From Anthopleura xanthogrammica (lineage: Eukaryota; Cnidaria; Anthozoa; Actiniaria; Actiniidae): DNA of 64,000 nucleotides. How positions within the stretch are numbered: the first letter of the stretch is position 1; every line of letters begins with the position of its first letter. Of this stretch, positions 2,852-49,879 are shown piece after piece. The notes under the pieces are model-generated. The model made no database searches. It was given only the letters and a program-made list of their open reading frames with translations, and was not told the origin of the DNA. Both the position numbers and the translations under genes were made by a program. The stretch is taken from contig OZ025223.1 in assembly GCA_964019055.1 (NCBI GenBank), forward strand, positions 8,748,263-8,812,262. Reading direction: 5' to 3'.

Positions 2852-2871
2852 GGGCTTTCCCGAATTCGCTT

Positions 2872-3041
2872 GCATGATGCATGTCGCATGTCGCATGTTG
2901 CATGTCGCATGTTGCATGTCGCATGTCGCATGTCGCATGTCGCATGTTGCATGTTGCATGTTGCATGTTGTATGTTGCATGTTGCATGTTGCATGTTGCA
3001 TGTTGCATGTTGCATGTTGCATGTTGCATGTTGCATGTTGC
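2872..3041 (+). repeat. (GCATGTT)n heptanucleotide satellite, unit 1
   Basis: About 24 head-to-tail copies of a 7-bp unit. The first half is rich in the variant gcatgtc and the second half is homogeneous gcatgtt. Open frames through it (repeating MQHATCN or CMLHVAC) exist only because a 7-bp unit without stops is open in all three frames. They are not called as genes. Confidence 0.95.
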
Positions 3042-3935: not shown

Positions 3936-4020
3936 TGAAAATGCGTAATTATATAAATTACGACCAGTCGTGATATCTTTCTTGCATGATACTGGACTGT
4001 TTGACGCTCTGAAGGTCCTA

Positions 4021-4290
4021 TAGTTCACCCTAAATTGATGCTTCACCATAGCAACCAGAGAGGGTAACTTTATACGATGACGTAAGTGTTATGGACAAAA
4101 CTTTATGTTCACTTCAGCTATATGGATTCTTTGTTGAGTCTGTAGTCAATAATTATAGTTCACACTAAATTGATGCTTCACCATAGCAACCAGAGAGGGA
4201 AACTTTATACGATGAGGTAAGTGTTATGGACAACACTATATGTTCACTTCAGCTATATGGATTCTTTGTTGAGTCTGTAGTCAATAATTA
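4021..4290. repeat. 135-bp direct tandem duplication, unit 1
   Basis: Two near-identical 135-bp copies (start tagttcac, end caataattat) lie side by side. Unit 2 has one copy (about 15558-15692). Both 3' flanks in unit 3 have two (29295-29564 and 37972-38241). Confidence 0.85.
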
Positions 4291-4353
4291 TTTCCTTTTT
4301 CGAGTCATGTAAGCGAGGCTAAAGGGTCAATACAAGCATGTAAACGTGTCTAC

Positions 4354-4412
4354 TTTATTCTCAACTAAGATTGGTTTGAGTATGAAATCCCGTGAAGACG
4401 TGTCTCTTTATT
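4354..4412 (-). terminator. Poly(A) signals of gene A, one overlapping the stop codon
   Basis: On the minus strand the last codons run into aataaa, so the TAA stop (4408-4410) lies inside a canonical poly(A) signal at 4407-4412. A second aataaa is about 50 nt downstream at 4354-4359. The overlap of stop and signal is conserved in B, D and E. The downstream signal is kept in D but lost in B and E. Confidence 0.6.
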
Positions 4413-7400
4413 GAAGACCTTGAAGGTTTAAATTATGAAACACAAGTCTTGACACTTCATTAAAATCAGGTTTGGAAAGGTTGCTGACCAAATTGAAGGA
4501 CTTTCCATCTTGTTCTGGAAACAGAAGGTATTGTTTTGCATTTGGAAAAACAGAATAATTCTGAGATATTCTGTGCTCAATGTCATCTGTTTGGACGTTA
4601 ATCACGTACATGAAACCCATATCAGTAATACCGAGATATGACCTTGATACGAAAAAAATGTCAACACTCGATATCTCTCTGTCTATTGACAAACGTTTGA
4701 ACAGAGAGCCATCTGAAGTGTAGACTATGAATATGGAATCCTTATGATGGTAAGCGAGAAGATGACCATCTTCAGAAACATGAACTGCTTCATCTACACT
4801 AATATGGGGCAGACGGTAAGGACAATGGCATATCTTTTCTACTAGTGGGTGGATCGAAATGGGTTCCTGTCCACGGAGAGAATGATACAGGAACAATTCT
4901 CGGTAGGTGTGTGTATAACGATGAATCCTCCAATTCATCAGCTCCACACCGCGTTCCAATCTTCTTGTCACGACGATATGACCTTGACAGGTAACGTCCA
5001 TTACAGTACTATCTTCATTCACTGTAATGGTGTTACGTACTTGTCCTGTTAGTTCTTCAATGACGTAGACCTTGTTGTCGCGATAACCCTTAATGACGAT
5101 GAAGCAACCCTGATCATCCCTAAACACATGACATGTTCGTATTGCATCATGGGGAGACTGATATTGACTGACCACTTCAAGTGTCGTTGCGTCTAATATC
5201 TCAATCTTGTTTCCATTTTCTTCGGCAGCAACAATGAAATTGATGTTTGGAGAGGTGGTAATGAGCCTTTTACTAGGAAACGATTTCTTCCTGATAAGGC
5301 GTCCATCAAGCTGAAACACATATACTGCAGTTGACAGTGAATTTGAACAAGTTATGGGGAGAACAGCTATAAACCCTTCCTTACACTTAAGTATATATTG
5401 TAGGAAAGATGAAACAAACAATTGTCCTCCTATTACTACTAACGGACTCTGCAACAAAGTACTTTCATTAAAATAAGGAAAATGATGCTTCTTTAGGGCA
5501 TCAAGTGCATTTGGCGTTGTTTCTTCACTCACTCCCTCCACATGTACAGCTTGAAGAACGAATGCAAGGTAACGCCCAAATGAAGTGGGACGAGAGAAGC
5601 GACAAGAAGAGTCGTGTCGCCGACTGTTCATGGGGAAACAAGTGCTCATACCTCGAAAAACATTGAGTAGAGATTGAGATATGATACCGCCACTAATGCA
5701 ATTGCCAAAGTTGATGTTTTCAATCTCTAATGCAGTCAGAAGGTAAATGTTAGAAAAAAATCCATACTTATCATCAGCTGTGACGTCTGGTAAACGTTTC
5801 TCAATATGGTTGCATAGAAATCTTAGAGCATACTTCTCGCTGTCTGTAAGGTTCAAAGGTTTATCCAGATCTTTCTTCCCGTTTCGTATGTCACTAAGGA
5901 CTTCATTACACTGACTGGCAAGTACTTCATTCCCGTCTTCTACACGAACACTGAAATCATGTTCTTCATCTTCTTGAAGAGTCAACCAATCAAACACTGA
6001 CTTGTGAAATGCTGTCACGTGATCCCCCTCAACAGGAAACAACCAATGAAGTGAGTTCAAAGCATCTTTTCTTTTCTTTCTCTCTTGGCGTTGGACTTCA
6101 CGCTCACTCTTAAGACATAGAATATTGTGAAACATGTTCTTTGGCAAAGGGTTGTTGGTTGCCACTACAGCTTCGAGCATCTTGTAGAACCTCTCTTCTT
6201 CTGCTATGTAAGGTAGGAGGACTTCTTTTAGACGAGAGAAATAATTCTCATACACTGATGAGATTCCGTTTGTGAACAGCTCCCAAACTTTGTCTGGTGA
6301 TGCGACCTTTTCTTTTTTCAAAAAGTCGATGACAAAGAAAGCCACTAAGAACAAACCTTTTGTCATTTCCACCAGCTTCTGTACAAGGTCTGCATTTTCG
6401 TCATTGTCGTACTGTGGATAGAGAGCTTTAAGCTCGAATCTGAAAAACAGTTCTAGATCTTTGATATTAGACTGATCTTCTGCTCTTATTTCTACAGCAA
6501 CAATCGAACCAAGGACAGAGGTATTTGTTGATGGTCTACTGGTGAGAATAAATCGAAGCCATGAAGGGAAACATGACAGTTTTTTCCTTAGTGCCTTCAG
6601 TAGTTCATCTTTAGGATCATGTGAACACTCGTCCAGAGCATCTAGGACAACCACCAAGTTAGAGTCTCTTTGTTCTACGTTACACAATGGTTCCTCCAGC
6701 AAAATGGTTAACAGCTCTTCACAGTTCATCTCGGAAATCTTCTTACCAAAATCTGTTTTCATCTTTCTTTCCAAGGCCTCTTCATAACCAGGAACCGTGT
6801 CACACATCTGCCTTGCTATGGACTGCAACATCAACCTTGGATTGTTTCTTGTAGAATTACTGAACTGAAAGAAGTGGCATGCTGCAAGACAGCCAAGATC
6901 CTCGTATGTCTGACAGATTGTAGCAGCAATAGTTGATTTGCCCATCCCTGGACCAGCTGTGATCAGCATTATACACGAGTCTGGTTGGTCACTGTCAACA
7001 TGGAATTTGACTGGATCGAGAATCCACTGGCGAGTGTCTGGATGGAAAGACTTACATTTTGTATTTATTTCTGGTCTAAAGTCAGAAAAATGCAACTTTT
7101 GGATCAGTTGATCTCTTTTCTGAGCCTCGATGCAGACATTCCTAATGTCATCTAGTTTATCTTTCATATCTGCCGTGTCTGTCTTGAGGTCTGCTGTGTC
7201 TGACTTGAGGTCTGCTGTGTCTGACTTGAGGTCTGCTGTGTCTGACTTGAGGTCTGCCGTGTCTGACTTGAGGTCTGCCGTGTCTGATTTGAGGTCTGCT
7301 GTGTCTGACTTGAGGTCTGCTGTGTCTGACTTGAGGTCTGCTGTGTCTGACTTGAGGTCTCCTGTGTCTGACTTGAGGTCTGCTGTGTCTGACTTGAGGT

Positions 7401-8769
7401 CTGCTGTGTATGACTTGAGGTCTGCTGTGTCTGACTTGAGGTCTGCCGTGTCTGATTTGAGGTCTGCTGTGTCTGACTTGAGGTCTGCTGTGTCTGACTT
7501 GAGGTCTGCTGTGTCTGACTTGAGGTCTGCTGTGTCTGACTTGAGGTCTGCTGTGTCTGACTTGAGGTCTGCTGTGTCTGACTTGAGGTCTGCTGTGTCT
7601 GACTTGAGGTCTGCTGTGTCTGACTTGAGGTCTGCTGTGTCTGACTTGAGGTCTGCTGTGTCTGACTTGAGGTCTGCTGTGTCTGACTTGAGGTCTGCTG
7701 TGTCTGACTTGAGGTCTGCTGTGTCTGACTTGAGGTCTGCTGTGTCTGACTTGAGGTCTGCTGTGTCTGACTTGAGGTCTGCTGTGTCTGACTTGAGGTC
7801 TGCTGTGTCTGACTTGAGGTCTGCTGTGTCTGACTTGAGGTCTGCTGTGTCTGACTTGAGGTCTGCTGTGTCTGACTTGAGGTCTGCTGTGTCTGACTTG
7901 AGGTCTGCTGTGTCTGACTTGAGGTCTGCTGTGTCTGACTTGAGGTCTGCTGTGTCTGACTTGAGGTCTGCTGTGTCTGACTTGAGGTCTGCTGTGTCTG
8001 TCTTGAGGTCTGCTGTGTCTGACTTGAGGTCTGCTGTGTCTGACTTGAGGTCTGCTGTGTCTGACTTGAGGTCTGCTGTGTATGACTTGAGGTCTGCTGT
8101 GTCTGACTTGAGGTCTGCTGTGTCTGACTTCACTTCCTCTAGCTGTGTTTTGACATCCTTATCTGATATATACCAATCATAGAGTAACTGGTTGTATTTT
8201 TTCTCTCCCAAAGGAGCAGACTTCAAATCATCGATGTCATCTTGACTCAGTCCCAATGACAGAAGGGCAGATGAGATATCTTGCCAGTGTTGTTCGAAGT
8301 CAACATTATCTATTTCCGTATTTGGTTTGTGTGCTATTGTATTGTTTCTGTAGTACTTTATCATGACTAGGTTACCCTCTAGTGAGTTATCTGTTTTGTG
8401 CGGCAACTTGTCCCAACCGCGCTTCCGTTTTCCAGAGCCAGTTATCTCATACACCGGTGGTGTAAGTCCGCAAATGTTTCTTAGAAGAACAAACAGTAAA
8501 GTGATATCAAAGTCTTCAGATTTAGGGTCACTCCCACTTGGTGGATACAGTTTGTCCCATTGCTCGTTATTCAGTACTTTCCCTTTTGGTTTTTTCAGCT
8601 TTTGTAGCGTTGTCTTGTTAGCATTTAAGAAGGTTTTCAATGTAGATGGTGCATATATACGATCAAATTCAGAACGAACTGCCTGTGTGCCTCCATCGAC
8701 AAGTAACCTACAAAGCTTGGTGTAGTTGATTTTTTCATCTGTTTCTTTGCACCAGCTGGATGAGGCCAT
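4408..8769 (-). CDS. Gene A: HEPN-(heptad coil)46-NACHT-beta-propeller protein
   Basis: A 1453-residue STAND-type NTPase, probably a cytosolic NLR-like sensor. The N-terminal roughly 200 residues resemble the DZIP3-like HEPN family, with R141-x5-H147 (RNNTIAH) matching the HEPN Rx4-6H motif of nucleases. Residues 214-535 are 46 uninterrupted heptads of the KSDTADL type. NACHT follows: Walker A GPGMGKST 606-613, Walker B VVVLDALDEC 706-715, LTSRP 742-746. The FHKSVFDWL motif near 920 is typical of the winged-helix end of animal NACHT proteins. From about 1145 to the end, repeated short beta-strand patterns (KIEILDATTLEVV, KVYVIEELTGQV) suggest a WD/quinoprotein-like propeller. I start at MASSSW because the sequence before it looks like a splice acceptor and copy E has no upstream ATG. 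The frame stays open upstream to 8802, with an ATG at 8799. A single large exon. The immune role is inferred. Confidence 0.85.
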   Translation of the reverse strand: MASSSWCKETDEKINYTKLCRLLVDGGTQAVRSEFDRIYAPSTLKTFLNANKTTLQKLKKPKGKVLNNEQWDKLYPPSGSDPKSEDFDITLLFVLLRNICGLTPPVYEITGSGKRKRGWDKLPHKTDNSLEGNLVMIKYYRNNTIAHKPNTEIDNVDFEQHWQDISSALLSLGLSQDDIDDLKSAPLGEKKYNQLLYDWYISDKDVKTQLEEVKSDTADLKSDTADLKSYTADLKSDTADLKSDTADLKSDTADLKTDTADLKSDTADLKSDTADLKSDTADLKSDTADLKSDTADLKSDTADLKSDTADLKSDTADLKSDTADLKSDTADLKSDTADLKSDTADLKSDTADLKSDTADLKSDTADLKSDTADLKSDTADLKSDTADLKSDTADLKSDTADLKSDTADLKSDTADLKSDTADLKSDTADLKSDTADLKSDTADLKSDTADLKSYTADLKSDTADLKSDTGDLKSDTADLKSDTADLKSDTADLKSDTADLKSDTADLKSDTADLKSDTADLKSDTADLKTDTADMKDKLDDIRNVCIEAQKRDQLIQKLHFSDFRPEINTKCKSFHPDTRQWILDPVKFHVDSDQPDSCIMLITAGPGMGKSTIAATICQTYEDLGCLAACHFFQFSNSTRNNPRLMLQSIARQMCDTVPGYEEALERKMKTDFGKKISEMNCEELLTILLEEPLCNVEQRDSNLVVVLDALDECSHDPKDELLKALRKKLSCFPSWLRFILTSRPSTNTSVLGSIVAVEIRAEDQSNIKDLELFFRFELKALYPQYDNDENADLVQKLVEMTKGLFLVAFFVIDFLKKEKVASPDKVWELFTNGISSVYENYFSRLKEVLLPYIAEEERFYKMLEAVVATNNPLPKNMFHNILCLKSEREVQRQERKKRKDALNSLHWLFPVEGDHVTAFHKSVFDWLTLQEDEEHDFSVRVEDGNEVLASQCNEVLSDIRNGKKDLDKPLNLTDSEKYALRFLCNHIEKRLPDVTADDKYGFFSNIYLLTALEIENINFGNCISGGIISQSLLNVFRGMSTCFPMNSRRHDSSCRFSRPTSFGRYLAFVLQAVHVEGVSEETTPNALDALKKHHFPYFNESTLLQSPLVVIGGQLFVSSFLQYILKCKEGFIAVLPITCSNSLSTAVYVFQLDGRLIRKKSFPSKRLITTSPNINFIVAAEENGNKIEILDATTLEVVSQYQSPHDAIRTCHVFRDDQGCFIVIKGYRDNKVYVIEELTGQVRNTITVNEDSTVMDVTCQGHIVVTRRLERGVELMNWRIHRYTHTYRELFLYHSLRGQEPISIHPLVEKICHCPYRLPHISVDEAVHVSEDGHLLAYHHKDSIFIVYTSDGSLFKRLSIDREISSVDIFFVSRSYLGITDMGFMYVINVQTDDIEHRISQNYSVFPNAKQYLLFPEQDGKSFNLVSNLSKPDFNEVSRLVFHNLNLQGLQ
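7165..8130 (-). repeat. 21-bp coding minisatellite of gene A, 46 units
   Basis: Exactly 966 bp, or 46 units of 21 bp, encoding K-S-D-T-A-D-L with rare substitutions (S to T, D to Y, A to G, L to M). Most units use ACA for Thr, whereas the array of gene E mostly uses ACG. A rare-variant unit (tctgattt at 7283 and 7451) repeats 168 bp apart, which is an 8-unit block duplication. The L/T spacing of 4 and 3 fits a coiled coil with Thr at a and Leu at d. Asp at g and Lys at e would form salt bridges. Confidence 0.95.
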
Positions 8770-8799
8770 CACTGAGTAAGAAAATATTAAAAATGTCAT
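8770..8799 (-). promoter_or_regulatory. Probable 3' splice acceptor before the gene A start codon
   Basis: Read on the minus strand, a T-rich tract ending ttttcttactcag lies two bases before the ATG, and a branch-point-like ttgatgac lies about 25 bases upstream. Copy E differs here by extra pyrimidines but keeps the acceptor, as expected for intron and not for coding sequence. Copy D has ctcgg in place of ctcag, losing the AG. Confidence 0.5.
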
Positions 8800-8848
8800 C
8801 AATCAAGACCATTTGTTTTCTAAATTTATTGCACGGTTACTGTCACTA

Positions 8849-13806: not shown

Positions 13807-13825
13807 GGGCTTTCCCGAATTCGCT

Positions 13826-14149
13826 TGCATGTTGCATGTTGCATGTTGCATGTTGCATGTAGTATGTTGCATGTTGCATGTTGCATGTTGCATGTTACAT
13901 GTTGCATGTAGCATGTAGTATGTTGCATGTAGCATGTAGTATGTTGCATGTTGCATGTAGCATGTAGTATGTTGCATGTAGCATGTAGTATGTTGCATGT
14001 AGCATGTAGTATGTTACATGTTGCATGTTGCATGTAGTATGTTGCATGTAGCATGTAGTGTGTTGCATGTTACATGTTGCATGTTGCATGTAGCATGTAG
14101 TATGTAGCATGTAGTATGTTGCATGTTGCATGTTGCATGTTGCATGTTG
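13826..14149 (+). repeat. 7-bp satellite, unit 2 (324 bp)
   Basis: About 46 heptamers. Besides gcatgtt it has many gcatgta and gtatgtt/gtatgta units arranged as short higher-order blocks that units 1 and 3 lack, so it expanded after duplication. Confidence 0.95.
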
Positions 14150-15889: not shown

Positions 15890-18800
15890 TTATTGAAGAC
15901 CTTGAAGGTTTAGATTACGGAACACAAGTCTTGACACTTTATAAAAATCAGGTTTTAAAGAATCTAGCCATTCAACCTTGCATTGAAGGCGGATCAAGTT
16001 GAAGGACTTCCCATCTTCTTGTGGAAACAGAAGGTATTCATTTGGGTCGGTATTACCAATATAGATCGTGTGCTCAATCTCATCTGTTTGGACGTTTATC
16101 ACGGATATGGTTACATCGTCAACAATCACGAGATATGACATTGATATGAACAAAATCTCATTAACCAATTCACGTTCTATTGCGCAACGTTTGAACAGAG
16201 TGCCATCTGACGTGTTGACTATGAATATGGAATCCTTATAATGGTATGCGAGAAGACGACCATCTTCAGAAAAACTAACAATTGCTTCATCTATCAATTC
16301 ATCGGGAGAAATGTTATCACAATCGTATATCTCTTCTTGTGGTGGGTAGATCGGAATGGGTTCCTGTCCACGGTCATAATGATACAGCAACAATTCTTGG
16401 TAGGTGTATGGATGCTCTGCATCACCAGTACTCCAATTCATCACCTTTACTTCACCATCTTCTGGTATCTTGCGTTTCCAACTTCTTGTCACGACAATAT
16501 GACCTTGACAGCTAACGTCCATTACAGTACTATCTTCATTCACTGTAATGGTGTTACGTACTTGTCCTGTTAAGCCTTCAATGACGTAGACCTCGTTGTC
16601 ATGACAACCTTTGATGACGATGAAGCAACCCTGATCATCCCCAAACACATGACATGTTTGTATTGCATTATGGGGAGACCGATATTGACTGACCACTTCA
16701 AGTGTCGTTGCGTCTAATATCTCAATCTTGTTCCCATTTACTTCGGCAGCAACGATAGAGTTAATGTTTGGAGAGGTGGTTATGAGCCTTTTGCCAGCAA
16801 TGAATTTCCTCCTGATAAGGCGTCCATCAAGCTGAAACGTACACACTTCAGTTGACGGTGAATTTGAACCTCCTTACACTCCTTACGAGTGCGAGGTAAT
16901 AAACAAATAGGTTCATCCACTATTTCTAACGGACTCTGCCATAAAATATTTTCATCAAATTAAGGAAAAAGATGATTCTTAGGGGCAGCAAGTGGATTTG
17001 GCGTGATTTCTTCACTCACTCTTTTCACATCTGCAACTTGAAGAAAGAGTGCAAGGTTACGCCCAATATTGAAGGGGGACGAAAGTAGCGACATGAAGGG
17101 TCGTGTTGTTTAATGCAACCGCAACGAAAACATTGTAGGTAATTGCTATAAACCTCGAATAGAGAACTAGACATGATACCTTCGTCAGAAAGAGTACCAT
17201 AAACGAAAGCTACAACAAAGTTGATTTCTTCAATATGTAATGCAGTCAGAAGGTAAATGTTAGAAAAAAATTCAAACTCATCAGGTTTGACGACTGGTGA
17301 GCGTTTCTCAATAAGGTTGCAAAAAAATCTTAGAGCATACTTCTCGCTGTCTGTAAGATTCAAAGGTTTATCCAGATCTTTCTTCCCGTTTTGTATGTCA
17401 CTAAGGACTTTATTACACTGCATGACTGGCAAGTACTTCATTCCCGTCTTCTACACGAACACTGAAGTCATGTTCTTCATCTTCTTGAAGAGTCAACCAA
17501 TCAAACACTGACTTGTGAAATGCTGTCACGTGATCCCCCTCAACAGGAAACAACCAATGAAGTGAGTTCAAAGCATCTTTTCTTTTCTTTCTCTCTTGTC
17601 GTGGGACTTGACGCTCACTCTTAAGACCAAGAATATTGTAAAACATGTTCTTTGGCAAAGGGTTGTTGGTTGCCACTACAGCTTCGAGCATCTTGTAGAA
17701 CATATCTTCTTCTGCTATGTAAGGTAGGAGCACTTCTTTTAGACGAGAGAAATAATTCTCATACACTGATGAGATTCCATTCGGGAACAGCTCCAAAACT
17801 TTCTCTGGTGATGCGACCTTTTCTTTTTTCAAAAAGTCGATGACAAAGAAAGCCACTAAGAACAAACCTTTTGTCATTTCCACCAGCTTCTGTACAAGGT
17901 CTGCATTTTCGTCATTGTCGTACTGTGGATAGAGAGCTTTAAGCTCGAAGCTAAAAAAATGTTCAAGATCTTTGATATTAGACTGATCTTCTGCTATTAT
18001 TTCTACAGGAACATTCGAAACAAGAGCAGAGGTATTTGTTGATGGTCTACTGGTGAGAATAAATCGAAGCCATGAAGGGAAACATGACAGTTTTTTCCTT
18101 AGTGCCTTCAGTAGTTCATCTTTAGGATCATGTGTACACTCGTCCAGAGCATCTACAACAACAATCAAGGTGGAACCTGTTTGTTTTACGTTACACAATG
18201 GTTCCTCCAGCAAAATGGTTAACAGCTCTTCACAGTTCATCTCGGAAATCTTCTTACCAAAATCTGTTTGCAACTTTCTTTTCAAGGCATCTTGATAACC
18301 AGGAACAGTGTCACACATCTGCCTTGCTATGGACTGCAACATCAACCTTGGATTGTTTCTTGTAGAATTACTGAACTGAAAGAAGTGGCATGCTGCAAGA
18401 CATCCAAGATCCTTGTATGTCTGACAGATTTTAGCAGCAATTGTTGATTTCCCCATCCCTGGACCAGCTGTGATCAGCATTATACACGAGTCTGGTTGGT
18501 CACTGTTAACATGGGATTTGACTTGATCGAAAATCCACTGGCGAGTGTTTGGTTGGAAAGACTTACATTTTGTATCTATTTCTCGTGTAAAATCAGAAAA
18601 ATGCAACTTTTGGATCGGTTGATCTCTTTTCACTTCCTCTAGCTGTGTTTTGACATCCTTATCTGATATATACCAATCATTGAGTAACTGGTTGTAGTCT
18701 TTCTCTCCCAAAGGAGCAGACCTCAAATCATCAATGTCATCTTGACTCAGTCCCAATGACAGAAGGGCAGATGAGATATCTTGCCAGTATTGTTCAAAGT

Positions 18801-19269
18801 CAACATCATTTATTTCAGTATTTGGTTTGTGTGCTATTGTATTGTTTCTGTAGTACTTTATCCTTGCTAGATTAGCCTCTTGTGAGTTATCTGTTTTGTG
18901 CGGCAACTTGTCCCAACCGCGCTTCCGGTTTCCAGAGCCAGCAATCTCATACACTGGTACTGTAAGTCCACAAATATTTCTTAGAAGAACAAACAGTAAA
19001 GTGATATCAAAGTCTTCAGATTTAGGGTCGCTCCCACTTCGTGGAAACAGTTTGTCCCATTGCTCGTTATTCAGTACTTTCCCTCCTGGTTTCTTCAGCA
19101 TTCGTAGCCTTGACAGGTGAGCATATAAGTTTGCTTTCAATGTTGATGGTGGATGTTTGCCATCAAATACAGAACGAGCTGCCTGTGTGCCTCCATCGAC
19201 AAGTAACCTACAAAGCTTGGTGTAGTTGATTTTGTCATCTGTTTCTTTGCACCAGCTGGATGAGGCCAT
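15890..19269 (-). pseudogene. Gene B: frameshifted HEPN-NACHT-propeller copy without the coil
   Basis: The first 618 codons are open and encode HEPN (R141-x5-H147) and NACHT (Walker A 269-276, Walker B 369-378) up to the winged-helix region. A 4-bp insertion (catg at 17421-17424, absent from A, D and E) then shifts the frame. Reading continues in a second frame to about 17025, where further indels (such as ccaatattgaag at about 17071) lead to a stop. Around 16865-16910 part of the linker is deleted. The last 318 codons of the propeller are open again to the same LNLQGLQ end. The heptad array and following linker (DKLDDIRNVCIEAQ in sister copies) are cleanly absent, joining EEVK to RDQP. A truncated HEPN-NACHT protein could still be made, but this is unproven. 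Confidence 0.8.
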
Positions 19270-19944: not shown

Positions 19945-21021
19945 TCAAGTCTCAAGCTTCTCCAGCCACCCCTCTATCCAGCTGATCTGAAATAGGGACG
20001 TAGAAAAGTGGCATGCTGCAAGACAGCCAAGATCCTTGTATGTCTGACAGATTTTAGCAGCAATAGTTGATTTGCCCATCCCTGGACCAGCTGTGATCAG
20101 CATTATACACGAGTCTGGTTGGTCACTGTCAACATGGGATTTGACTGGATCGAGAATCCACTGCTGAGTTTTTGAATGAAAATACTTACATTTTCTATTT
20201 GTTTCTGGCTTAAAGTCAGAAAAATGCAACTTTTGGATCGGTTGATCTCTTTTCTGAGCCTCGATGCAGACATTCCTATGGTCATCTAGTTTATCTAGTT
20301 TATCTAGTATATCTGCTATGTCTGACTTGATGCCTGCTGTGTCTGACTTGATGCCTGCTGTGTCTGTCTTGAGGTCAGCTGTGTCTGACTTGATGTCAGC
20401 TGTGTCTGACTTCACTTCCTCTAGCTGTGTTTTGACATCCTTATCTGATATATACCAATCACAGAGTAACTGGTTGTAGTCTTTCTTTCCCAAAGGAGCA
20501 GACCTCAAATCATCAATGTCATTTTGACTCAGTCCCAATGACAGAAGGGCAGATGAGATATCTTGCCATAGTTGTTTAAAGTCAACATCATTTATTTCAG
20601 TATTTGATTTGTGTGCTATTGTATTGTTTCTGTAGTACTTTATCCTGGCTAGGTTAGCCTCTAGTGAGTTATCTGTTACAGGTGGTAAGACATCCCATCC
20701 AGCTGCTGGTGGTGCAAGTCCACAAATATTTCTTAGAAGAACAAACAGTAAAGTGATATCAAAGTATTCAGATTTAGGGTCACTCCTACTTGGTGGATAC
20801 AGTTTGTCCCATTGCTCGTTATTCAGTACTTTCCCTTTTGGTTTTTTCAGCTTTTGTAGCGTTGTCTTGGTAGCATTTAAGTTGGCTTTTAGCAAAGATG
20901 GTGGATGTATGCCATCAAATACAGAACGAACTGCCTGTGTGCCTCCATCGACAAGTAACCTACAAAGCTTGGTGTAGTTGATTTTTTCATCTGTTTCTTT
21001 GCACCAGCTGGATGAGGCCAT
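19945..21021 (-). pseudogene. Gene C: truncated, chimeric HEPN-coil-NACHT copy
   Basis: Encodes HEPN (R131-x5-H137), five diverged heptads (about 204-238) and the start of NACHT with Walker A at about 312-319. It breaks off after CLAACHF. The last roughly 20 codons (STSLFQISWIEGWLEKLET) are translated from flank: a 28-bp filler (19978-20005) and then the arm of the ctccagccaccc foldback belonging to the 5' flank of B. Walker B, winged helix and propeller are missing. The HEPN part carries the shorter PPAAGW form shared with D. Unlikely to be a functional NTPase. Confidence 0.8.
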
Positions 21022-29011: not shown

Positions 29012-29294
29012 TTACATCCATGATCATTCCTAATTACGTGACCAACACAGCCCAAGACGTCTGTGTTTTAGGCTACCGTCAATCAAAAATTTACAAGCTC
29101 AGACCGATGAAAATTTGATTGACGGAAGCAAAAAACCCAGGCGAATCGAAATGTTGCTAGTTGTCTGGGTCGCGTGATTATGAAAATGCGTAAACTATAT
29201 AAATTACGTCCAGTCGTGATATCTTTCTTGCATGATACTTGACATCTTTTTTGGAATGCATGATACTTGACTGTTTGACGCTCTGAAGGTCCTA

Positions 29295-29564
29295 TAGTTC
29301 ACCCTAAATTGATGCCTCACCATAGCAACCAGAGAGGGAAACTTTATACGATGACGTAAGTGTTATGGACAACACTCTATGTTCACTTCAGCTATATGGA
29401 TTCTTTGTTGAGTCTGTAGTCAATAATTATAGTTCACCCTAATTTGATGCTTCACCATAGCAACCAGAGAGGGAAACTTTATACGATGACGTAAGTGTTA
29501 TGGACAACACTCTATGTTCACTTTAGCTATATGGATTCTTTGTTGAGTCTGTAGTCAATAATTA
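29295..29564. repeat. 135-bp direct tandem duplication (gene D side)
   Basis: Two copies with start points exactly 135 bp apart, as at gene A and gene E. Confidence 0.85.
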
Positions 29565-29708
29565 TATCCTTTTTCAAGTCATGTAAGCGAGGCTAAAGGG
29601 TCAATACAAGCAAAACAGACCAATAACAAGCAGTAATATCGGTGTCAGTATTAAGGTCAGTCACTTTTTCTTAAGATGGAGTATGTAGTCACGTACAAAC
29701 GTGTCTAC

Positions 29709-29767
29709 TTTATTCTCAACTAAGATTGGATTGAGTTTGAAATCCCGTAAAGACGTGTCTCTTTATT
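29709..29767 (-). terminator. Poly(A) signals of gene D
   Basis: AATAAA overlaps the TAA stop (29762-29767), and a second copy lies about 50 nt downstream (29709-29714), the same arrangement as in gene A. Confidence 0.55.
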
Positions 29768-32700
29768 GAAGACCTTGAAGGTTTAAATTATGAAACACAA
29801 GTCTTGACACTTCATAAATACCAGGTTTGAAATGATTGCTGATCAAGTTGAAGGACTTTCCATCTTGTTCTGGAAACAGAAGGTATTGTTTTGTATTTGG
29901 TAAAACAGGATAAGGAAGATAGATTCTGTGCTCAATCTCATCTGTTTGGACGTTAATCACGGACATGAAACGCTGATCAATAATCAGGAGATATGACCCT
30001 GATACGAACAAAATGTCAAGACACGATACGCATGCGTCTGTTGACCAACGTTTGAAAAGAGTGCCATCTGACGTGTTGACTATGAATATGGAATACTTAT
30101 AATGGTATGCGAGAAGACGACCATCTTCAGAAACATGAACTGCGTCATGTACATTAATATCGGGCAGCCTGTAAGGACAAGGGCATTTATTTTTTACTGT
30201 TGGGTAGATTGGAATGGGTTCCTGTTCACGGTCATAATGATACAGCAACAATTCACGATAGGTGTAAATGAAGTACTGTTTAGATGGTGTCTGTAAACCA
30301 GGTTTTGGAGGATATGGATACTCAGTATGACCAATCCCCCAATTCATCAGCTTCACTTCACCATCTTTATTGGTAAACGTTTTTATTTCTTCTGGCTCAT
30401 AGCGCTTCCATGTTCTTGTCACGACAATATGACCCTGACAGCTAACGTCCATTACAGTACTATCTTCATTCACTGTAATGGTGTTACGTACTTGTCCTGT
30501 TAGTCCTTCAATGACGTAGACCTTGTTGTCATGACAACCCTTGATGACGATGAAGCAGCCCTGATCATCCCCAAACACGTGACATGTTTGTATTGCGTCA
30601 TGGGGAGACTGATATTGACTGACCACTTCAAGTGTCGTTGCGTCTAATATCTCAATCTTGTTCCCATTTTCTTCGGCAGCAACGATGAAGTTGATGTTTG
30701 GAGAGGTGGTAATGAGCCTTTTGCAAATAAAGGATTTCCACATGATAAGTCGTCCATCAAGCTGAAACACATATACTGCAGTTGACAGTGAATTTGAACA
30801 AGGTATGGGGAGAACAGCTATAAACCCTTCCTTACACTTAAGTAGATATTGTAGGGAAGATAACAATGACAAGCGTCCTTCTATTACTGCTAACGGAGTC
30901 TGCAACAAAGCATTTTCATAAAAATAAGGAAAATGATGCTTCGTAAGGGCATCAAGTGCATTTGGCGTTGTTTCTTCACTCAATCCCTTCGCATGTGCAG
31001 CTTGAAAAACGAATGCAAGATAACGCCCAAATGAAGTGGGACGAGCGAAGCGACAAGAAGAGTCGTGTGGCTGTATGTTCCTGGGGAAACAAATTGTCAT
31101 ACCTCCAAGTACTTTGAGTAGAGAATTAGATATCATACCGTCACTAATGCAATTGCCAAAATTGATGTTTTCAATCTTTAATGTAGTCAGAAGGTAAATG
31201 TTAGAAAACAATCTATGCTTATCAGCTTTGACGACTGGCAAACGTTTCTTAATAAGGTTGCAAAGAAATCTTACAGCATACTTCTCGGTGTCTGTAAGAT
31301 TCAACGGTTTATCAAGATCTTTCTTCCCGTTGCGTATGTCACTAAGGACTTCATTACACTGACTGGCAAGTACTTCATCCCCGTCTTCTACACGAACACT
31401 GAAGTCATGTTCTTCATCTTCTTGAAGAGTCAACCAATCAAACACTGACTTGTGAAATGCTGTCACGTGATCCCCCTCAACAGGAAACAACCAATGAAGT
31501 GAGTTCAAAGCATCTTTTCTTTTCTTTCTCTCTTGGCGTTGGACTTCATGGTCACTCTTAAGACAAAGAATATTGTAAAACATGTTCTTTGGCAAAGGGT
31601 TGTTGGTTGCCACTACAGCTTCAAGCATCTTGTAGAACCACTCTTCTTCTAATATGTAAGGTAGGAGGATTTCTTTTAGACGATAGAAATAATTCTCATA
31701 CACTGATGAGATTCCATTTGGGAACAGCTTCCAAACTTTGTCTGGTGATGCGACATTTTCTTTTTTTAAAAAGTCGATGACAAAGAAAGCCACTAAGAAC
31801 AAACCTTTTGTCATTTCCACCAGCTTCTGTACAAGGTCTGCATTTTCGTCATTGTCGTACTGTGGATAGAGAGCTTTAAGCTCGGAGCTAAAAAAATGTT
31901 CAAGATCTTTGATATTGGACTGATCTTCTGCTATTATTTCTATGGCAACCACCAAACCAAGGGCAGAGGTATTTGTTGATGGTCTACTGGTGAGAATAAA
32001 TCGAAGCCATGAAGGGAAACATGACAGTTTTTGCCTTAGTGCCTTCAGTAGTTCATCTTTAGGATCATGTGAACACTCGTCCAGAGCATCTAGAACAACA
32101 ACCAAGTTAGAGTCTCTTTGTTCTACATTACACAATGGTTCCTCCAGCAAAATGGTTAACAGCTCTTCACAGTTCATCTCGGAAATCTTCTTACCAAAAT
32201 CTGTTTGCAACTTTCTTTTCAAGGCATCTTCATAACCAGGAACAGTGTCACACATCTGCCTTGCTATGGACTGCAACATCAACCTTGGATTGTTTCTTGT
32301 GGAATTACTAAACTGAAAGAAGTGACATGCTGCAAGACATCCAAGATCCTTGTATGTCTGACAGATTTTAGCAGCAATAGTTGATTTGCCCATCCCTGGA
32401 CCAGCTGTGATCAGCATTATACACGAGTCTGGTCGGTCACTGTCAACATGGGATTTGACATGATCTAGAATCCACTGGCGAGTGTTTGGATGAAAAGACT
32501 TACATTTTGTATTTATTTCTGGTCTAAAGTCAGAAAAATGCAGCTTTTGGATTGGTTCATTCATTTTCTGAGCCTCGATGCAGACATTCCTAATGTCAAC
32601 AAGTTTGTCTTTCATGTCTGCCGTGTCTGACTTGAGGTCTGCTGTATTTGACTTGAGGTCTGCTGTGTCTGTCTTGAGGTTTGCTGTGTCTGTCTTGATG

Positions 32701-33347
32701 CCTGCTGTGTCTGACTTGAGGTCTGCTGTGTCTGACTTCACTTCCTCTAGCTGTGTTTTGACATCCTTATCTGATATATACCAATCATAGAGTAACTGGT
32801 TGTTGTCTTTCTTTCCCAAAGGAGCAGACTTCAAATCATCTATGGCATCTTGACTGAGTCCCAATGACAGAAGGGCAGATGAGATATCTTGCCAGTGTTG
32901 TTCGAAGTCAACATCATCTATTTCAGTATTTGGTTTGTGTGCTATTTTATTGTTTCTGTAGTACTTTATCCTTGCTAGGTTAGCCTCTAGTGAGGTATCT
33001 GTTCCAGGTGGTAAGACATCCCATCCAGTTGCTGGTGGTGCAAGTCCACAAATATTTCTTAGAAGAACAAACAGTAAAGTGATATCAAAGTCTTCAGATT
33101 TAGGGTCACTCCCACTTGGTGGATACAGTTTGTCCCATTGCTCGTTATTCAGTACTTTCCCTTTTGGTTTTTTCAGCTTTTGTAGCGTTGTCTTGGTAGC
33201 ATTTAAGTTGGCTTTTAGCAAAGATGGTGGATGTATGCCATCAAATACAGAACGAACTGCCTGTGTGCCTCCATCGACTAGTAACCTACAAAGCTTGGTG
33301 TAGTTGATTTTGTCATCTGTTTCTTTGCACCAGCTGGATGAGGCCAT
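29763..33347 (-). CDS. Gene D: HEPN-(heptad coil)6-NACHT-beta-propeller protein
   Basis: A 1194-residue intact paralog. The HEPN domain has R131-x5-H137 (RNNKIAH) and lacks the 10-residue insert present in A, B and E. Residues 204-245 are only six heptads, several diverged (KSDTAGI, KTDTANL, KSNTADL). Walker A is 316-323 and Walker B 416-425. FHKSVFDWL lies near 630 and the propeller covers the last roughly 310 residues. The propeller carries a short Pro/Tyr-rich insert (PYPPKPGLQTPSKQY) not seen in the sisters. The splice acceptor proposed before the start codon in A and E is changed from ctcag to ctcgg here, a silent change if the upstream frame is translated. So D may start at the upstream ATG (33377), use another acceptor, or be poorly spliced. 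NLR-like function is inferred. Confidence 0.85.
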   Translation of the reverse strand: MASSSWCKETDDKINYTKLCRLLVDGGTQAVRSVFDGIHPPSLLKANLNATKTTLQKLKKPKGKVLNNEQWDKLYPPSGSDPKSEDFDITLLFVLLRNICGLAPPATGWDVLPPGTDTSLEANLARIKYYRNNKIAHKPNTEIDDVDFEQHWQDISSALLSLGLSQDAIDDLKSAPLGKKDNNQLLYDWYISDKDVKTQLEEVKSDTADLKSDTAGIKTDTANLKTDTADLKSNTADLKSDTADMKDKLVDIRNVCIEAQKMNEPIQKLHFSDFRPEINTKCKSFHPNTRQWILDHVKSHVDSDRPDSCIMLITAGPGMGKSTIAAKICQTYKDLGCLAACHFFQFSNSTRNNPRLMLQSIARQMCDTVPGYEDALKRKLQTDFGKKISEMNCEELLTILLEEPLCNVEQRDSNLVVVLDALDECSHDPKDELLKALRQKLSCFPSWLRFILTSRPSTNTSALGLVVAIEIIAEDQSNIKDLEHFFSSELKALYPQYDNDENADLVQKLVEMTKGLFLVAFFVIDFLKKENVASPDKVWKLFPNGISSVYENYFYRLKEILLPYILEEEWFYKMLEAVVATNNPLPKNMFYNILCLKSDHEVQRQERKKRKDALNSLHWLFPVEGDHVTAFHKSVFDWLTLQEDEEHDFSVRVEDGDEVLASQCNEVLSDIRNGKKDLDKPLNLTDTEKYAVRFLCNLIKKRLPVVKADKHRLFSNIYLLTTLKIENINFGNCISDGMISNSLLKVLGGMTICFPRNIQPHDSSCRFARPTSFGRYLAFVFQAAHAKGLSEETTPNALDALTKHHFPYFYENALLQTPLAVIEGRLSLLSSLQYLLKCKEGFIAVLPIPCSNSLSTAVYVFQLDGRLIMWKSFICKRLITTSPNINFIVAAEENGNKIEILDATTLEVVSQYQSPHDAIQTCHVFGDDQGCFIVIKGCHDNKVYVIEGLTGQVRNTITVNEDSTVMDVSCQGHIVVTRTWKRYEPEEIKTFTNKDGEVKLMNWGIGHTEYPYPPKPGLQTPSKQYFIYTYRELLLYHYDREQEPIPIYPTVKNKCPCPYRLPDINVHDAVHVSEDGRLLAYHYKYSIFIVNTSDGTLFKRWSTDACVSCLDILFVSGSYLLIIDQRFMSVINVQTDEIEHRIYLPYPVLPNTKQYLLFPEQDGKSFNLISNHFKPGIYEVSRLVFHNLNLQGLQ
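32613..32738 (-). repeat. 21-bp coding minisatellite of gene D, 6 units
   Basis: 126 bp, exactly six units, much less homogeneous than the arrays of A and E. It probably represents the short ancestral state or an old contraction. Confidence 0.95.
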
Positions 33348-36399: not shown

Positions 36400-36419
36400 G
36401 GGCTTTCCCGAATTCGCTT

Positions 36420-38443: not shown

Positions 38444-38449
38444 TTTATT
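38444..38449 (-). terminator. Poly(A) signal overlapping the gene E stop codon
   Basis: AATAAA contains the TAA stop. Unlike in A and D, the downstream second signal is mutated (gagaatgag). Confidence 0.5.
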
Positions 38450-41400
38450 GAAGACCTTGAAGGTTTAAATTATGAAACACGAGTCTTGACAATTCATAAA
38501 TACCAGGTTTGAAATGGTTGCTGATCAAGTTGAAGGACTTTCCATCTTGTTCTGGAAACAGAAGGTATTGTTTTGTATTTGTTAAAATAGGATAAGGAAG
38601 AAAGATGCTGTGCTCAATCTCATCTATTTGGACGTTTATCACGGATATGGTGTTCCTGTCAATAATCACGAGATATGATCTTGATGTGAACAAAATCTCA
38701 TCAACATATTCACGTTCTATTGCGCAACGTTTGAACAGAGAGCCATCTGACGTGTTGACTATGAATATGGAATCCTTATAATGGTATGCGAGAAGACGAC
38801 CATCTTCAGAAAAACTAACAATTGCTTCATCTTTAAAACATTCGCAACAAAAAATATCACAATCGCACATCTCTTCTTGTGGTGGGTAGATCGGAATGGG
38901 TTCCTGTCCACGGTCATAATGATACAGCAACAATTCTAGGTAGCCGTATCTATACTCTTCATCACTAATATTCCAATCCATCAGCTCTACTTCACAATCT
39001 TCTGGTATCTTGCGTTTCCATGTTCTTGTCACGACAATATGGCCCTGACAGCTAACGTCCATTACAGTGCTATCTTCATTCACTGTAATGGTGTTACGTA
39101 CTTGTCCTGTTAGTTCTTCAATGACGTAGACCTTGTTGTCATGACAACCTTGAATGACGATGAAGCAACCCTGATCATCCCTAAACACGTGACATGTTCG
39201 TATTGCATCATTGGGAGACTGATATTGACTGACCACTTCATGTGTCGTTGCGTCTAACATCTCAATCTTGTTCCCATTTTCTTCAGCAGCAACAATGAAG
39301 TTGATGTTTGGAGAGGTGGTTATGAGCCTTATGCCAGGAAAGGATTTCCTCCTGATAAGGTGTCCATCAAGCTGAAGCATATATACTGCAGTTGACGGTG
39401 AATTTGACCAAGATATGGGGGGAACAGCTACCAACCCCTTCTTACATTTAAATAAACCTCGAAAGGAAGGTGGTACATCAATCAAATCACCCACTAACGG
39501 ACTTTGCCATAAAATATTTTCATCAAAATAAGGAAAAAGATGCTTCTTAAGGGCAGCAAGTGGATTTGGCGTTGTTTCTTCACTCACTCCCTTCACATGT
39601 GCAGCTTGAAGAAAGAATGCAAGGTTACGCCCAAATGAAGGGGAACGAAAGTACCTACAGAAAGGGTCATGTTGACAAATCAACGGGTATCTGAACGACT
39701 GCAAATAATGTCTGTACTCGTGACATACCTCGATTAGAGAACTAGTCATGATACCTTCGTCAGAACGAGTTCTAGATACGGCGAAATCTATAGGAAAGTC
39801 GATGTCTTCAATATGTAATGCAATCTGAAGGTAAATGTTAGAAAAAAATCCATACTTATCATCAGGTTTGACGACTGATGAGCCTTTCTTGGCAAGGTGG
39901 CAAATATAACTTAGAGCATACTTCTCGCTGTCTGTAAGATTCAAAGGTTTATCCAGATCTTTCTTCCCGTTCCGTATGTCACTAAGGACTTCATTACACT
40001 GACTGGCAAGTACTTCATCCCCGTCTTCTACACGAACACTGAAGGCATGTTCTTCATCTTCTTGAAGAGTCAACCAATCAAAAACTGACTTGTGAAATGC
40101 TGTCACGTTATCCCCCTCACCAGGAAACAACCAATGAAGTGAGTTCAAAGCATCTTTTCTTTTCTTTCTCTCTTGGCGTTGGACTTCACGCTCACTCTTA
40201 AGACAAAGAATATTGTAAAACATGTTCTTTGGCAAAGGGTTGTTGGTTGCCACTAAAGCTTCGAGCATCTTGTAGAACCTCTCTTCTTCTGCTATGTAAG
40301 GTAGGAGGATTTCTTTTAGACGAGAGAAATAATTCTCATACACTGATGAGATTCCATTTGGGAACAGCTCCCAAACTTTGTCTGGTGATGCGACATTTTC
40401 CTTTTTCAAAACGTCGATGACAAAGAAAGCCACTAAGAACAAACCTTTTGTCATTTCCACCAGCTTCTGTACAAGGTCTGCATTTTCGTCCTTGTCGTAC
40501 TGTGGATAGAAAGCTTTAAGCTCGAACCTGAAGAAAAGTTCAAGATCTTTGATATTAGACTGATCTTCTGCTCGTATTTCTACAGCAACAATCGAACCAA
40601 GAGCAGAGGTATTTGTTGATGGTCTACTGGTGAGAATAAATCGAAGCCATGAAGGGAAACATGACAGTTTTTTCCTTAGTGCCTTCAGTAGTTCATCTTT
40701 AGGATCATGTGAACACTCGTCCAGAGCATCTAGGACAACCACCAAGTTAGAGTCTCTTTGTTCTACGTTACACAATGGTTCCTCCAGAAAAACTGTTAAC
40801 AGCTCTTCACAGTTCATCTCGGAAATCTTCTTACCAAAATCTGTTTTCATTTTTCTTTCCAAGGCCTCTTGATAACCAGGAACAGTGTCACACATCTGCC
40901 TTGCTATGGACTGCAACATCGACCTTGGATTATTTCTTGTAGAATTACTGAACTGAAAGAAGTGGCATGCTGCAAGACATCCAAGATCCTTGTATGTCTG
41001 ACAGATTTTAGCAGCAATAGTTGATTTGCCCATCCCTGGACCAGCTGTGATCATCATTAAACACGAGTCTGGTGGGTCCCTGTCAACATGGGATTTGACT
41101 TGATCGAGAATCCATTGGCGAGTGTCTGGATGGAAAGACTTACATTTTCTATTTATTTCTGGTCTAAAGTCAGAAAAATGCAACTTTTGGATCGGTTGAT
41201 CTCTTTTCTGAGCCTCGATGCAGACATTCCTAATGTCATCTAGTTTATCTTTCATATCTGTCGCGTCTGACTTGAGATCTGCTGTGTCTGACTTGAGATC
41301 TGCCGTGTCTGACTTGAGGTCTGCTGTGTCTGACTTGAGTTCTACTGTGTCTGACTTGAGGTCTGCTGTGTCTGTTTTGAGGCCTGCCGTGTCTGACTTC

Positions 41401-42290
41401 AGGTCTGCCGTGTCTGACTTGAGGTCTGCCGTGTCTGACTTGAGGTCTGCCGTGTCTGACTTGAGGTCTGCCGTGTCTGACTTGAGGTCTGCCGTGTCTG
41501 ACTTGAGGTCTGCCGTGTCTGACTTGAGGTCTGCCGTGTCTGACTTGAGGTCTGCCGTGTCTGACTTGAGGTCTGCCGTGTCTGACTTGAGGTCTGCCGT
41601 GTCTGACTTGAGGTCTGCTGTGTCTGACTTGAGGTCTGCTGTGTCTGACTTCACTTCCTCTAGCTGTACTTTGACATCCTTATCCGATATATACCAATCA
41701 CAGAGTAACTGGTTATAGTCATTTTCTCCCAAAGGAGCAGACCTCAAATCATCAATGTCATCTTGACTCAGTCCCAATGACAGAAGGGCAGATGAGATAT
41801 CTTGCCAGTGTTGTTCAATGTCAACATCATTTATTTTAGTATTTGGTTTGTGTGCTATTGTATTGTTTCTGTAGTACTTTATCCTGGTTAGGTTCGCCTC
41901 TAGTGAGTTATCTGTTTTGTGCGGCAACTTGTCCCAACCGCGCTTCCGTTTTCCAGAGCCAGTAATCTCATACACCGGTGGTGTAAGTATACAAATATTT
42001 CTTAGAAGAACAAACAGTAAAGTGATATCAAAGTCTTCAGATTTAGGGTCGCTCCCACTTGGTGGATACAGTTTGTCCCATTGCTCGTTATTCAGTACTT
42101 TCCCTCTTGGTTTCTTCAGCTTCTGTAGCGTTGTCTTGTTAGCATTTAAGTTTGCTTTCAATAAGGATTGTGGATGTATGCCATCGAATACAGAACGAAC
42201 TGCCTGTGTGCCTCCATCGACTAGTAACCTACAAAGCTTGGTGTAGTTGATTTTTTCATCTGTTTCTTTGCACCAGCTGGATGAGGCCAT
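38445..42290 (-). CDS. Gene E: HEPN-(heptad coil)19-NACHT-beta-propeller protein
   Basis: A 1281-residue intact paralog. HEPN has R141-x5-H147. The coil is 19 heptads at 214-346. Walker A is 417-424 (GPGMGKST), Walker B 517-526, and FHKSVFDWL lies near 730. The propeller fills about the last 310 residues. E is a mosaic: its HEPN and 5' flank resemble A, the post-NACHT linker (SDEGIMTSSL) and mid-propeller (PPQEE, RCAIERE) resemble B, and the last roughly 45 residues resemble D (NTKQYLLFPEQDGKSF...KPGIYE). No upstream ATG precedes MASSSW (the matching codon is ATA), and the preceding pyrimidine tract is longer, which supports this start. Likely cytosolic NLR-like sensor, by inference. Confidence 0.85.
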   Translation of the reverse strand: MASSSWCKETDEKINYTKLCRLLVDGGTQAVRSVFDGIHPQSLLKANLNANKTTLQKLKKPRGKVLNNEQWDKLYPPSGSDPKSEDFDITLLFVLLRNICILTPPVYEITGSGKRKRGWDKLPHKTDNSLEANLTRIKYYRNNTIAHKPNTKINDVDIEQHWQDISSALLSLGLSQDDIDDLRSAPLGENDYNQLLCDWYISDKDVKVQLEEVKSDTADLKSDTADLKSDTADLKSDTADLKSDTADLKSDTADLKSDTADLKSDTADLKSDTADLKSDTADLKSDTADLKSDTADLKSDTAGLKTDTADLKSDTVELKSDTADLKSDTADLKSDTADLKSDATDMKDKLDDIRNVCIEAQKRDQPIQKLHFSDFRPEINRKCKSFHPDTRQWILDQVKSHVDRDPPDSCLMMITAGPGMGKSTIAAKICQTYKDLGCLAACHFFQFSNSTRNNPRSMLQSIARQMCDTVPGYQEALERKMKTDFGKKISEMNCEELLTVFLEEPLCNVEQRDSNLVVVLDALDECSHDPKDELLKALRKKLSCFPSWLRFILTSRPSTNTSALGSIVAVEIRAEDQSNIKDLELFFRFELKAFYPQYDKDENADLVQKLVEMTKGLFLVAFFVIDVLKKENVASPDKVWELFPNGISSVYENYFSRLKEILLPYIAEEERFYKMLEALVATNNPLPKNMFYNILCLKSEREVQRQERKKRKDALNSLHWLFPGEGDNVTAFHKSVFDWLTLQEDEEHAFSVRVEDGDEVLASQCNEVLSDIRNGKKDLDKPLNLTDSEKYALSYICHLAKKGSSVVKPDDKYGFFSNIYLQIALHIEDIDFPIDFAVSRTRSDEGIMTSSLIEVCHEYRHYLQSFRYPLICQHDPFCRYFRSPSFGRNLAFFLQAAHVKGVSEETTPNPLAALKKHLFPYFDENILWQSPLVGDLIDVPPSFRGLFKCKKGLVAVPPISWSNSPSTAVYMLQLDGHLIRRKSFPGIRLITTSPNINFIVAAEENGNKIEMLDATTHEVVSQYQSPNDAIRTCHVFRDDQGCFIVIQGCHDNKVYVIEELTGQVRNTITVNEDSTVMDVSCQGHIVVTRTWKRKIPEDCEVELMDWNISDEEYRYGYLELLLYHYDRGQEPIPIYPPQEEMCDCDIFCCECFKDEAIVSFSEDGRLLAYHYKDSIFIVNTSDGSLFKRCAIEREYVDEILFTSRSYLVIIDRNTISVINVQIDEIEHSIFLPYPILTNTKQYLLFPEQDGKSFNLISNHFKPGIYELSRLVFHNLNLQGLQ
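41253..41651 (-). repeat. 21-bp coding minisatellite of gene E, 19 units
   Basis: 399 bp, exactly 19 units. The central block uses ACG for Thr (plus strand tgccgt), unlike the ACA of gene A, so the array homogenised independently. Confidence 0.95.
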
Positions 42291-49875: not shown

Positions 49876-49879
49876 GGAT

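Follow-up and report, generated by a model that had tools for sequence, protein, structure and literature searches.

A cluster of HEPN-NACHT genes with a heptad array of variable length

The DNA that we analyzed, a stretch of 64,000 nucleotides from the sea anemone Anthopleura xanthogrammica (the window), lies within a 10.07-Mb contig (C20) of a 289.8-Mb assembly of 125 contigs. It contains five paralogous genes on the minus strand, A to E, which are listed together with the other features of the locus in Table 1. Gene A occupies a minus-strand open reading frame (ORF) of 1464 codons (4408-8802), in which the start Met was set by comparison with the Actinia tenebrosa protein P0008. Within this ORF, Tandem Repeats Finder (TRF) identified an array with a period of 21 bp, 45.8 copies, a 98% match, and a score of 1847, which in frame corresponds to 46 heptads (966 bp), most of them SDTADLK. 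An earlier sequence-only reading of the locus had described a 21-bp minisatellite encoding uninterrupted heptads between a HEPN and a NACHT domain, and this description is accurate: the 46 in-frame units all reside within one ORF, and Pfam agrees in placing HEPN upstream and NACHT downstream of the array. The heptad counts that it assigned to the five genes (46 in A, 19 in E, 6 in D, 5 in C, and 0 in B) are likewise right by inspection of the units, while a stricter scripted counting rule gives 4 for gene C. Two of its other claims need to be corrected. The copies do not all differ by exact multiples of 21 bp, as gene B has lost 15 flanking codons together with the array and is 57 codons shorter than gene D, and gene C carries three additional codons next to its array. 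Nor are the NACHT domains nearly identical, since protein identity between the five copies is 84-94%. Both genes B and C are damaged, with matches to the gene D protein switching frame repeatedly after the winged helix in gene B and gene C ending inside its NACHT domain. Thus, the intact series within the window consists of 46, 19, and 6 heptads only. A sixth member of the cluster (L009, C20:8740000-8746000) is located just left of the window and carries 13 heptads, with ~86 copies of a 7-bp unit arrayed downstream of it. Downstream of the window paralogs, TTGCATG arrays and paired 135-bp repeats are both found inside the duplicated unit, and the window also includes a type I hammerhead ribozyme, a rhodopsin-type GPCR ORF, and a 57-bp minisatellite.

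Table 1. Genes, domains, arrays, and other features of the window
Feature	Position	Strand	Remarks
TTGCATG 7-bp arrays	2870-3041, 13825-14149, 36418-36589		Downstream of paralogs
Paired 135-bp repeats	4019-4291, 29293-29566, 37970-38243		Downstream of paralogs
Gene A	4408..8769	-	Intact single ORF, 1453 aa from MASSSW; order HEPN_DZIP3, 46 heptads, NPHP3_N/NACHT, HTH_TANC1, C-terminal part homologous to gene D propeller
Gene A winged helix HTH_TANC1	5911..6195	-	PF25521, 29.8 bits (cut-off 27)
Gene A NPHP3_N/NACHT	6535..7038	-	PF24883, 110 bits; PF05729, 29.9 bits
Antisense ORF within gene A array	7130..8182	+	157 Pfam models matched
Gene A array	7162..8127	-	46 x 21 bp, SDTADLK heptads; TRF range 7169-8130
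Gene A HEPN_DZIP3	8203..8649	-	PF18738, 160.7 bits; putative RNase motif RNNTIAH
Gene B	15890..19269	-	Broken copy without heptads
Gene B propeller piece	15890-16846	-	
Gene B HEPN-NACHT-winged helix ORF	17413-19269	-	Frame changes beyond
Gene C	19945..21021	-	Broken: HEPN, 5 heptads plus 3 extra codons, end within NACHT
Gene D	29763..33347	-	Intact, 1194 aa, 6 heptads
Gene D C-terminal beta-propeller	29766..30932	-	Residues 806-1194
Gene D array	32610..32735	-	6 units
Gene E	38445..42290	-	Intact, 1281 aa, 19 heptads
Gene E array	41250..41648	-	19 units
Type I hammerhead ribozyme	48373-48418	-	Rfam RF00163, 38.6 bits (gathering 34); between gene E and GPCR-like ORF
57-bp minisatellite	49364-49877		9 copies, outside genes
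Rhodopsin-type GPCR ORF	52880-53923	-	Uninterrupted, 347 aa

Domains and structure models

The HEPN family PF18738 is present in all five window copies, each with the motif RNNTIAH or RNNKIAH, and among the best 120 of 433 homologues plus window copies the R, N, and H of this motif are identical in 123 of 124 proteins (including the five window copies), with the remaining one unaligned. These alignment-based counts supersede strict regular expressions, which had found the HEPN motif in 17, Walker A in 23, and both anchors in 16 of 121 proteins. In the NACHT domain of gene A, a GPGMGKST P-loop and a Walker-B-like LDALDE can be read in the sequence. PF24883 and PF05729 both score above their cut-offs in genes A, B, D, and E, gene C has only a partial PF24883 match below the cut-off, and the PF25521 winged helix was found in the same four genes. 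No leucine-rich repeat (LRR) was present among the eight Pfam families matched by gene D at E 0.01. The model of gene D, the one copy for which the entire protein was modeled, has a mean pLDDT of 82.4 and ends in a beta-propeller. Its five best Foldseek matches are murine Apaf-1 and human apoptosome chains (E 3.5e-16 to 1.9e-15), although a whole-chain TM of ~0.2 means that a match of the overall arrangement is not implied. The genes probably encode intracellular NLR/Apaf-1-like switch proteins with a putative RNase-type HEPN head. Their closest proteins among the best 120 of 433 homologues are from A. tenebrosa (81% over gene D residues 1-700).

Structure prediction of the coil segment, which the sequence-only reading had proposed as a check, yielded a mixed outcome in AlphaFold2 monomers of genes A and D: the segment is helical, but the helices are broken and the pLDDT is moderate to low. 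The gene A array forms helices at residues 189-310, 329-471, and 483-557 with a pLDDT of mostly 65-84, broken at 311-328 and 472-482, while the linker of gene D has a pLDDT of ~40. The 48-nm rod previously calculated for gene A holds only if the array is one straight helix, whereas the monomer model contains three long ones. This splitting could be taken to indicate that a long array folds back on itself through intramolecular antiparallel hairpins, creating a compact bundle instead of a rod. We consider such folding quite improbable, because near-identical units make the break points arbitrary and of low confidence, 6-heptad arrays are too short to need folding back, and a monomer prediction cannot show oligomers.

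A coiled-coil signal in the linkers of relatives

To describe the repeat, we assigned a heptad register (T=a, A=b, D=c, L=d, K=e, S=f, D=g), which is a convention rather than a result. In this register the SDTADLK heptad has Thr at a and a single strong hydrophobic residue; the gene A array has a net charge of -44 and a mean helix propensity of 0.43 kcal/mol vs a family median of 0.44. A 21-bp repeat yields a heptad in every open frame, and the plus-strand ORF spanning the gene A array was judged to be a by-product of the stop-free 21-bp unit, not a gene. Among the 25 listed Pfam models matched by this antisense ORF, many are coiled-coil models, and its scores exceed those of the array in the real protein. 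Pfam coil-model matches of the array were therefore rejected as coil evidence, and because the antisense translation of the same array matches coil models too, the heptad periodicity of the array is itself no evidence of a coil. A PDB sequence search with 90 array residues gave 14 matches at E up to 1, by name mainly designed or other helical proteins, which we attribute to composition only; a PDB sequence search with protein P0004 gave no match. When the array region was used to search a protein database, 10 proteins were matched, three of which are A. tenebrosa family members (P0008, P0009, and P0018), while the listings of the other seven are without a HEPN_DZIP3 or NPHP3_N domain. The sequences of three of these seven were inspected, and the search brought up no second long TADLK array.

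The linkers of relatives are more informative. The homologue search scored 7993 candidates, and the statistics given here cover the best 120 of 433 homologues, those named being from the anthozoans Actinia, Actinostola, Exaiptasia, Acropora, Montipora, Oculina, and Paramuricea. Both domains were mapped in 124 proteins, 123 of which had both anchors and were kept; counts for non-window linkers omit the five window genes and four A. tenebrosa proteins. Within the best 120 of 433, the mean hydrophobic spectrum of the 96 non-window linkers of at least 50 aa peaks at 3.48-3.52 residues, with the best period rounding to 3.5 in 71 of them. For non-window linkers of at least 100 aa from this same set, 38/40 peak at 3.45-3.55, compared with 2/42 of the control stretches of equal length after the P-loop (window genes included). 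Proline accounts for just 35 of 12127 linker residues (0.3%) vs 3.9% in all proteins, again among the best 120 of 433 homologues and with the window included. Q and T are frequent at core positions of the non-window linkers in this set, similar to the window Thr at a, but these residues were read after a phase choice that maximizes hydrophobics and serve as an illustration rather than a test. Heptads of a similar kind are also present in P0011 and P0012, which are more distant.

These observations bear upon a reading in which the array is a passive or disordered spacer, nothing more than an in-frame minisatellite that a linker can tolerate, with no function as a coil. Such a spacer would agree with the heptads that any 21-bp repeat produces in its open frames, with the low AlphaFold2 confidence in the gene D linker, and with the lack of significant purifying selection within the arrays described below. 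We nevertheless regard it as unlikely, since the heptad period and an excess of 7-residue steps both hold in relatives without perfect minisatellites (best 120 of 433 homologues), proline is nearly absent from the linkers of that set, and the distant P0011 and P0012 share the pattern. The coiled coil originally proposed between HEPN and the NTPase can therefore be retained on different grounds: the imperfect linkers of relatives argue for it through their period, scarce proline, and 7-residue steps, while the periodicity of the array is uninformative. Sequence comparison thus supports a predicted coiled-coil stalk between the RNase-type HEPN head and the STAND NTPase, and we infer that this stalk dimerizes in a parallel orientation.

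An excess of seven-residue steps in linker length

Changes in linker length were measured between nearest-relative pairs in a tree, chosen by a core identity threshold and omitting linkers with an anchor distance ≤40. Among non-window pairs at ≥80% identity (best 120 of 433 homologues), 18/52 changes are multiples of 7 when 7.4 are expected (p=2.0e-4), while the remaining 34/52, and thus most of the changes, are not. Including the window and A. tenebrosa proteins raises this to 22/58 (p=7.5e-6). At a 70% threshold, the same set of homologues yields 21/64 (p=1.4e-4), and at 90% the excess is weaker (10/30, p=0.007), with multiples of 4 (14) and 8 (9) about as enriched as those of 7. At 80% and 70%, 14 and 7 stand out among moduli 4 to 18 (best 120 of 433); the p-values of all these modulus and threshold tests are uncorrected for multiple testing. 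The flanks served as controls, in which multiples of 7 were found in 6/59 changes after the P-loop and 3/16 before the linker (best 120 of 433). Internal repeats point in the same direction. They occur in 25/73 linkers of at least 80 aa among the best 120 of 433 homologues, and the top repeat lag is a multiple of 7 (7, 21, 28, 35, 42, or 49 aa) in 19/25, or 17/23 without genes A and E. In this set, such lags come from 5/8 of the clusters concerned, with a single cluster contributing 10/19, and the six exceptional lags are 81, 73, 30, 39, 39, and 64.

Within the window clade, the distance from the HEPN Arg to the P-loop is 3 mod 7 in 8/8 uninterrupted genes tested (A, D, E, L009, L012, L017, P0008, and P0009) and in 0/3 interrupted ones (B, C, and L021), a comparison that is post hoc and small and whose uninterrupted half would be produced by 21-bp slippage alone. 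The interrupted L021 (C2:11473900-11480700), counted as having 1 heptad, is split into ORFs of 751 and 525 codons, and its array has a period of 33 bp (11 residues, hendecad-like) among others, with no clean 21-bp period.

Arrays across the gene family and their expansion

A two-unit pattern allowing ≤3 mismatches had at least 96 matches in the genome, and a reversed two-unit pattern used as a control had no match genome-wide. As all listed matches fall within members of this HEPN-NACHT family on contigs C20 and C2, the array is apparently a property of the gene family and not a dispersed satellite. HEPN_DZIP3 has 63 matches in the genome, including the five window genes. Of 20 stretches retrieved, 12 entered the paralog comparison; those left out were L016, whose ORF is short, and seven in which the HEPN ORF lacked a GPGMGKS P-loop. 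By a fixed rule, these 12 further paralogs contain 15, 13, 12, 9, 7, 4, 3, 1, and 1 in-register heptads plus three zeros. One of the zeros, L018, retains part of a heptad, and the A. tenebrosa protein P0008, scored as 0 by the strict rule, has six heptads by eye, the first ending in R. High counts are scattered over several clades of the core tree, indicating that array expansion probably occurred more than once, and counts of 15, 9, and 7 are found within one C2 subclade. Conversely, P0009, L010, and L018 are uninterrupted without an array; a long stalk is therefore dispensable. A second and distinct kind of repeat behind HEPN is seen in L025 (C11:10285100-10291800, ~1243-2248), where a HEPN_DZIP3 ORF of 591 aa contains ~1 kb of in-frame repeats encoding ENLER-type pentads, with TRF periods of 30 and 45.

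Genes A, D, and E are 88-94% identical in their HEPN, NACHT, and winged-helix regions despite having 46, 6, and 19 heptads, and these regions are constrained, with pairwise dN/dS values of 0.31-0.48. The C-terminal part yields 0.90-1.57, as would be expected of a sensor on which selection is relaxed or diversifying. Inside the arrays, no significant purifying selection was detected, with 7/15 possible synonymous and 14/45 possible nonsynonymous variants seen (p=0.35). One third-position variant predominates in A and another in E, which fits independent and recent expansion of the two arrays. The interior of the gene A array has 24 consecutive identical units, with variant units interspersed in the array, and its 46 copies most probably reflect a recent and harmless expansion through slippage.

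That this count might instead be an assembly artefact is extremely improbable. Near-identical tandem units are indeed prone to miscounting, but the size of the 10.07-Mb contig and the small number of contigs suggest that the assembly was built from long reads, a single one of which would accommodate 966 bp; furthermore, the variant units are interspersed and other paralogs have arrays of their own.

The sequence-only reading went further and proposed a tunable spacer or oligomerization ruler as a possible new way for NLR-like genes to diversify. Under such a ruler, stalk length would itself be selected and would set the HEPN-NACHT assembly distance or the pairing of paralogs, making copy number an axis of diversification beside the sensor. 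The length diversity that the reading relied upon is real both in the genome and in relatives; points in favor of a ruler are the contrast between similar domain regions and disparate arrays in A, D, and E, the spread of counts within the C2 subclade, and expansions in several clades. The tuning itself was not borne out, since the uninterrupted P0009 has no array, no significant purifying selection is seen inside the array, and stepwise change already follows from slippage. With zero-array genes persisting uninterrupted, the row of near-identical interior units in gene A suggesting recent slippage, and no link between length and function in the present results, we give selection for length little credence.

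Discussion

The explanation that we favor, with a probability of roughly 57% for the whole, is a coiled-coil stalk whose register is favored and whose length drifts by the slippage of units. HEPN RNases generally need two protomers. A coiled-coil stalk between effector and switch would pair the HEPN heads, and the NACHT switch would control whether this pair can act. Changes that keep the register would be favored because they leave the HEPN heads and the switch angularly aligned, while stalk length would otherwise be largely free and would often shift as DNA units coding for entire heptads are added or deleted, most rapidly in the anemone array, whose unit is exactly one heptad (21 bp). Both an RNase activity of the HEPN head and a need for register are presumed in this scheme. 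A bolder and rather unlikely extension is that diversification of an NLR-like RNase receptor in anthozoans follows two axes independent of each other. One would be a propeller sensor that evolves fast, and the other the length of the coil, which would mutate by whole heptads via register-safe 21-bp minisatellites, so that a stalk of 0 to ~48 nm sets both paralog pairing and how HEPN heads meet upon activation.

How NLR-like switches signal to their effectors is an open question. In this large animal family, the length of a coil-like linker changes by steps that preserve the register more frequently than expected by chance, and the close relatives with 46, 19, 13, 6, and 0 heptads constitute a ready-made experiment in length and register. 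The arrays also present a case of a minisatellite able to vary protein geometry while leaving the reading frame and coil phase intact.

In Apaf-1, a nucleotide-binding domain is followed by a winged helix and a beta-propeller. Apaf-1/Dark and gene D share the same domain order, except that here HEPN replaces the CARD and the predicted coil is inserted between effector and NTPase. Fusions of a DZIP3-like HEPN to NACHT have been described in cnidarians (PMC8260672, PMC10236652) and in the pearl oyster (PMC9646362), and DZIP3-HEPN/NACHT fusions in animals have been cataloged (PMC3710099). With LRRs excluded, HEPN is the commonest NACHT partner in A. tenebrosa and others (PMC8260672 / PMC10236652), and in the pearl oyster 194/202 DZIP3-like HEPN proteins, whether or not they contain NACHT, have an Rx4-6H motif (PMC9646362). 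Those cnidarian and pearl-oyster genes have the same effector and switch domains and the same expanded gene numbers as the family described here, which differs from the available descriptions in its heptad-stepped, extensible putative coil between the domains; the word "coiled" is absent from the main texts of PMC8260672, PMC10236652, and PMC9646362 (in one it appears in the reference list only). Neither a heptad-stepped HEPN-NACHT stalk nor an in-frame heptad minisatellite coding for a coiled coil was found in the literature searched, which misses most subscription papers. Thus, HEPN-NACHT genes are known, while the heptad-stepped stalk may tentatively be regarded as new.

Three other systems share parts of this design. 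The chicken BG genes, which belong to the butyrophilin family, encode a cytoplasmic coiled coil of 27-38 heptads built from 21-nucleotide units, and they likewise form an immune multigene family in which genes and haplotypes differ in heptad number (PMC5938342). Their heptads are mostly separate 21-nucleotide exons in the tail of a membrane protein (PMC5938342), in contrast to the one uninterrupted, near-identical array located within a single ORF between a STAND effector and switch. The fungal HNWD NLRs het-d/het-e also carry near-identical in-frame repeats, whose high internal conservation is accompanied by variation in copy number that has been ascribed to recombination, through unequal crossing-over or otherwise (PMC12222747), but those are WD40 repeats belonging to the sensor, whereas ours are heptads between the effector and NTPase. 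Finally, in histidine kinases a coiled-coil linker joins sensor and effector as it would here, signaling helices such as those of YF1 and LvrB tend to have linker lengths divisible by seven, and shifting the linker register alters signaling (PMC6798134, PMC13269768). Unlike the anemone genes, these kinases are bacterial and have few heptads (three in LvrB), and minisatellite expansion goes unmentioned in the available portions of these sources. By analogy, the HEPN-NACHT stalk may act in a manner resembling the signaling helices of histidine kinases, with a putative dependence upon register of its own.
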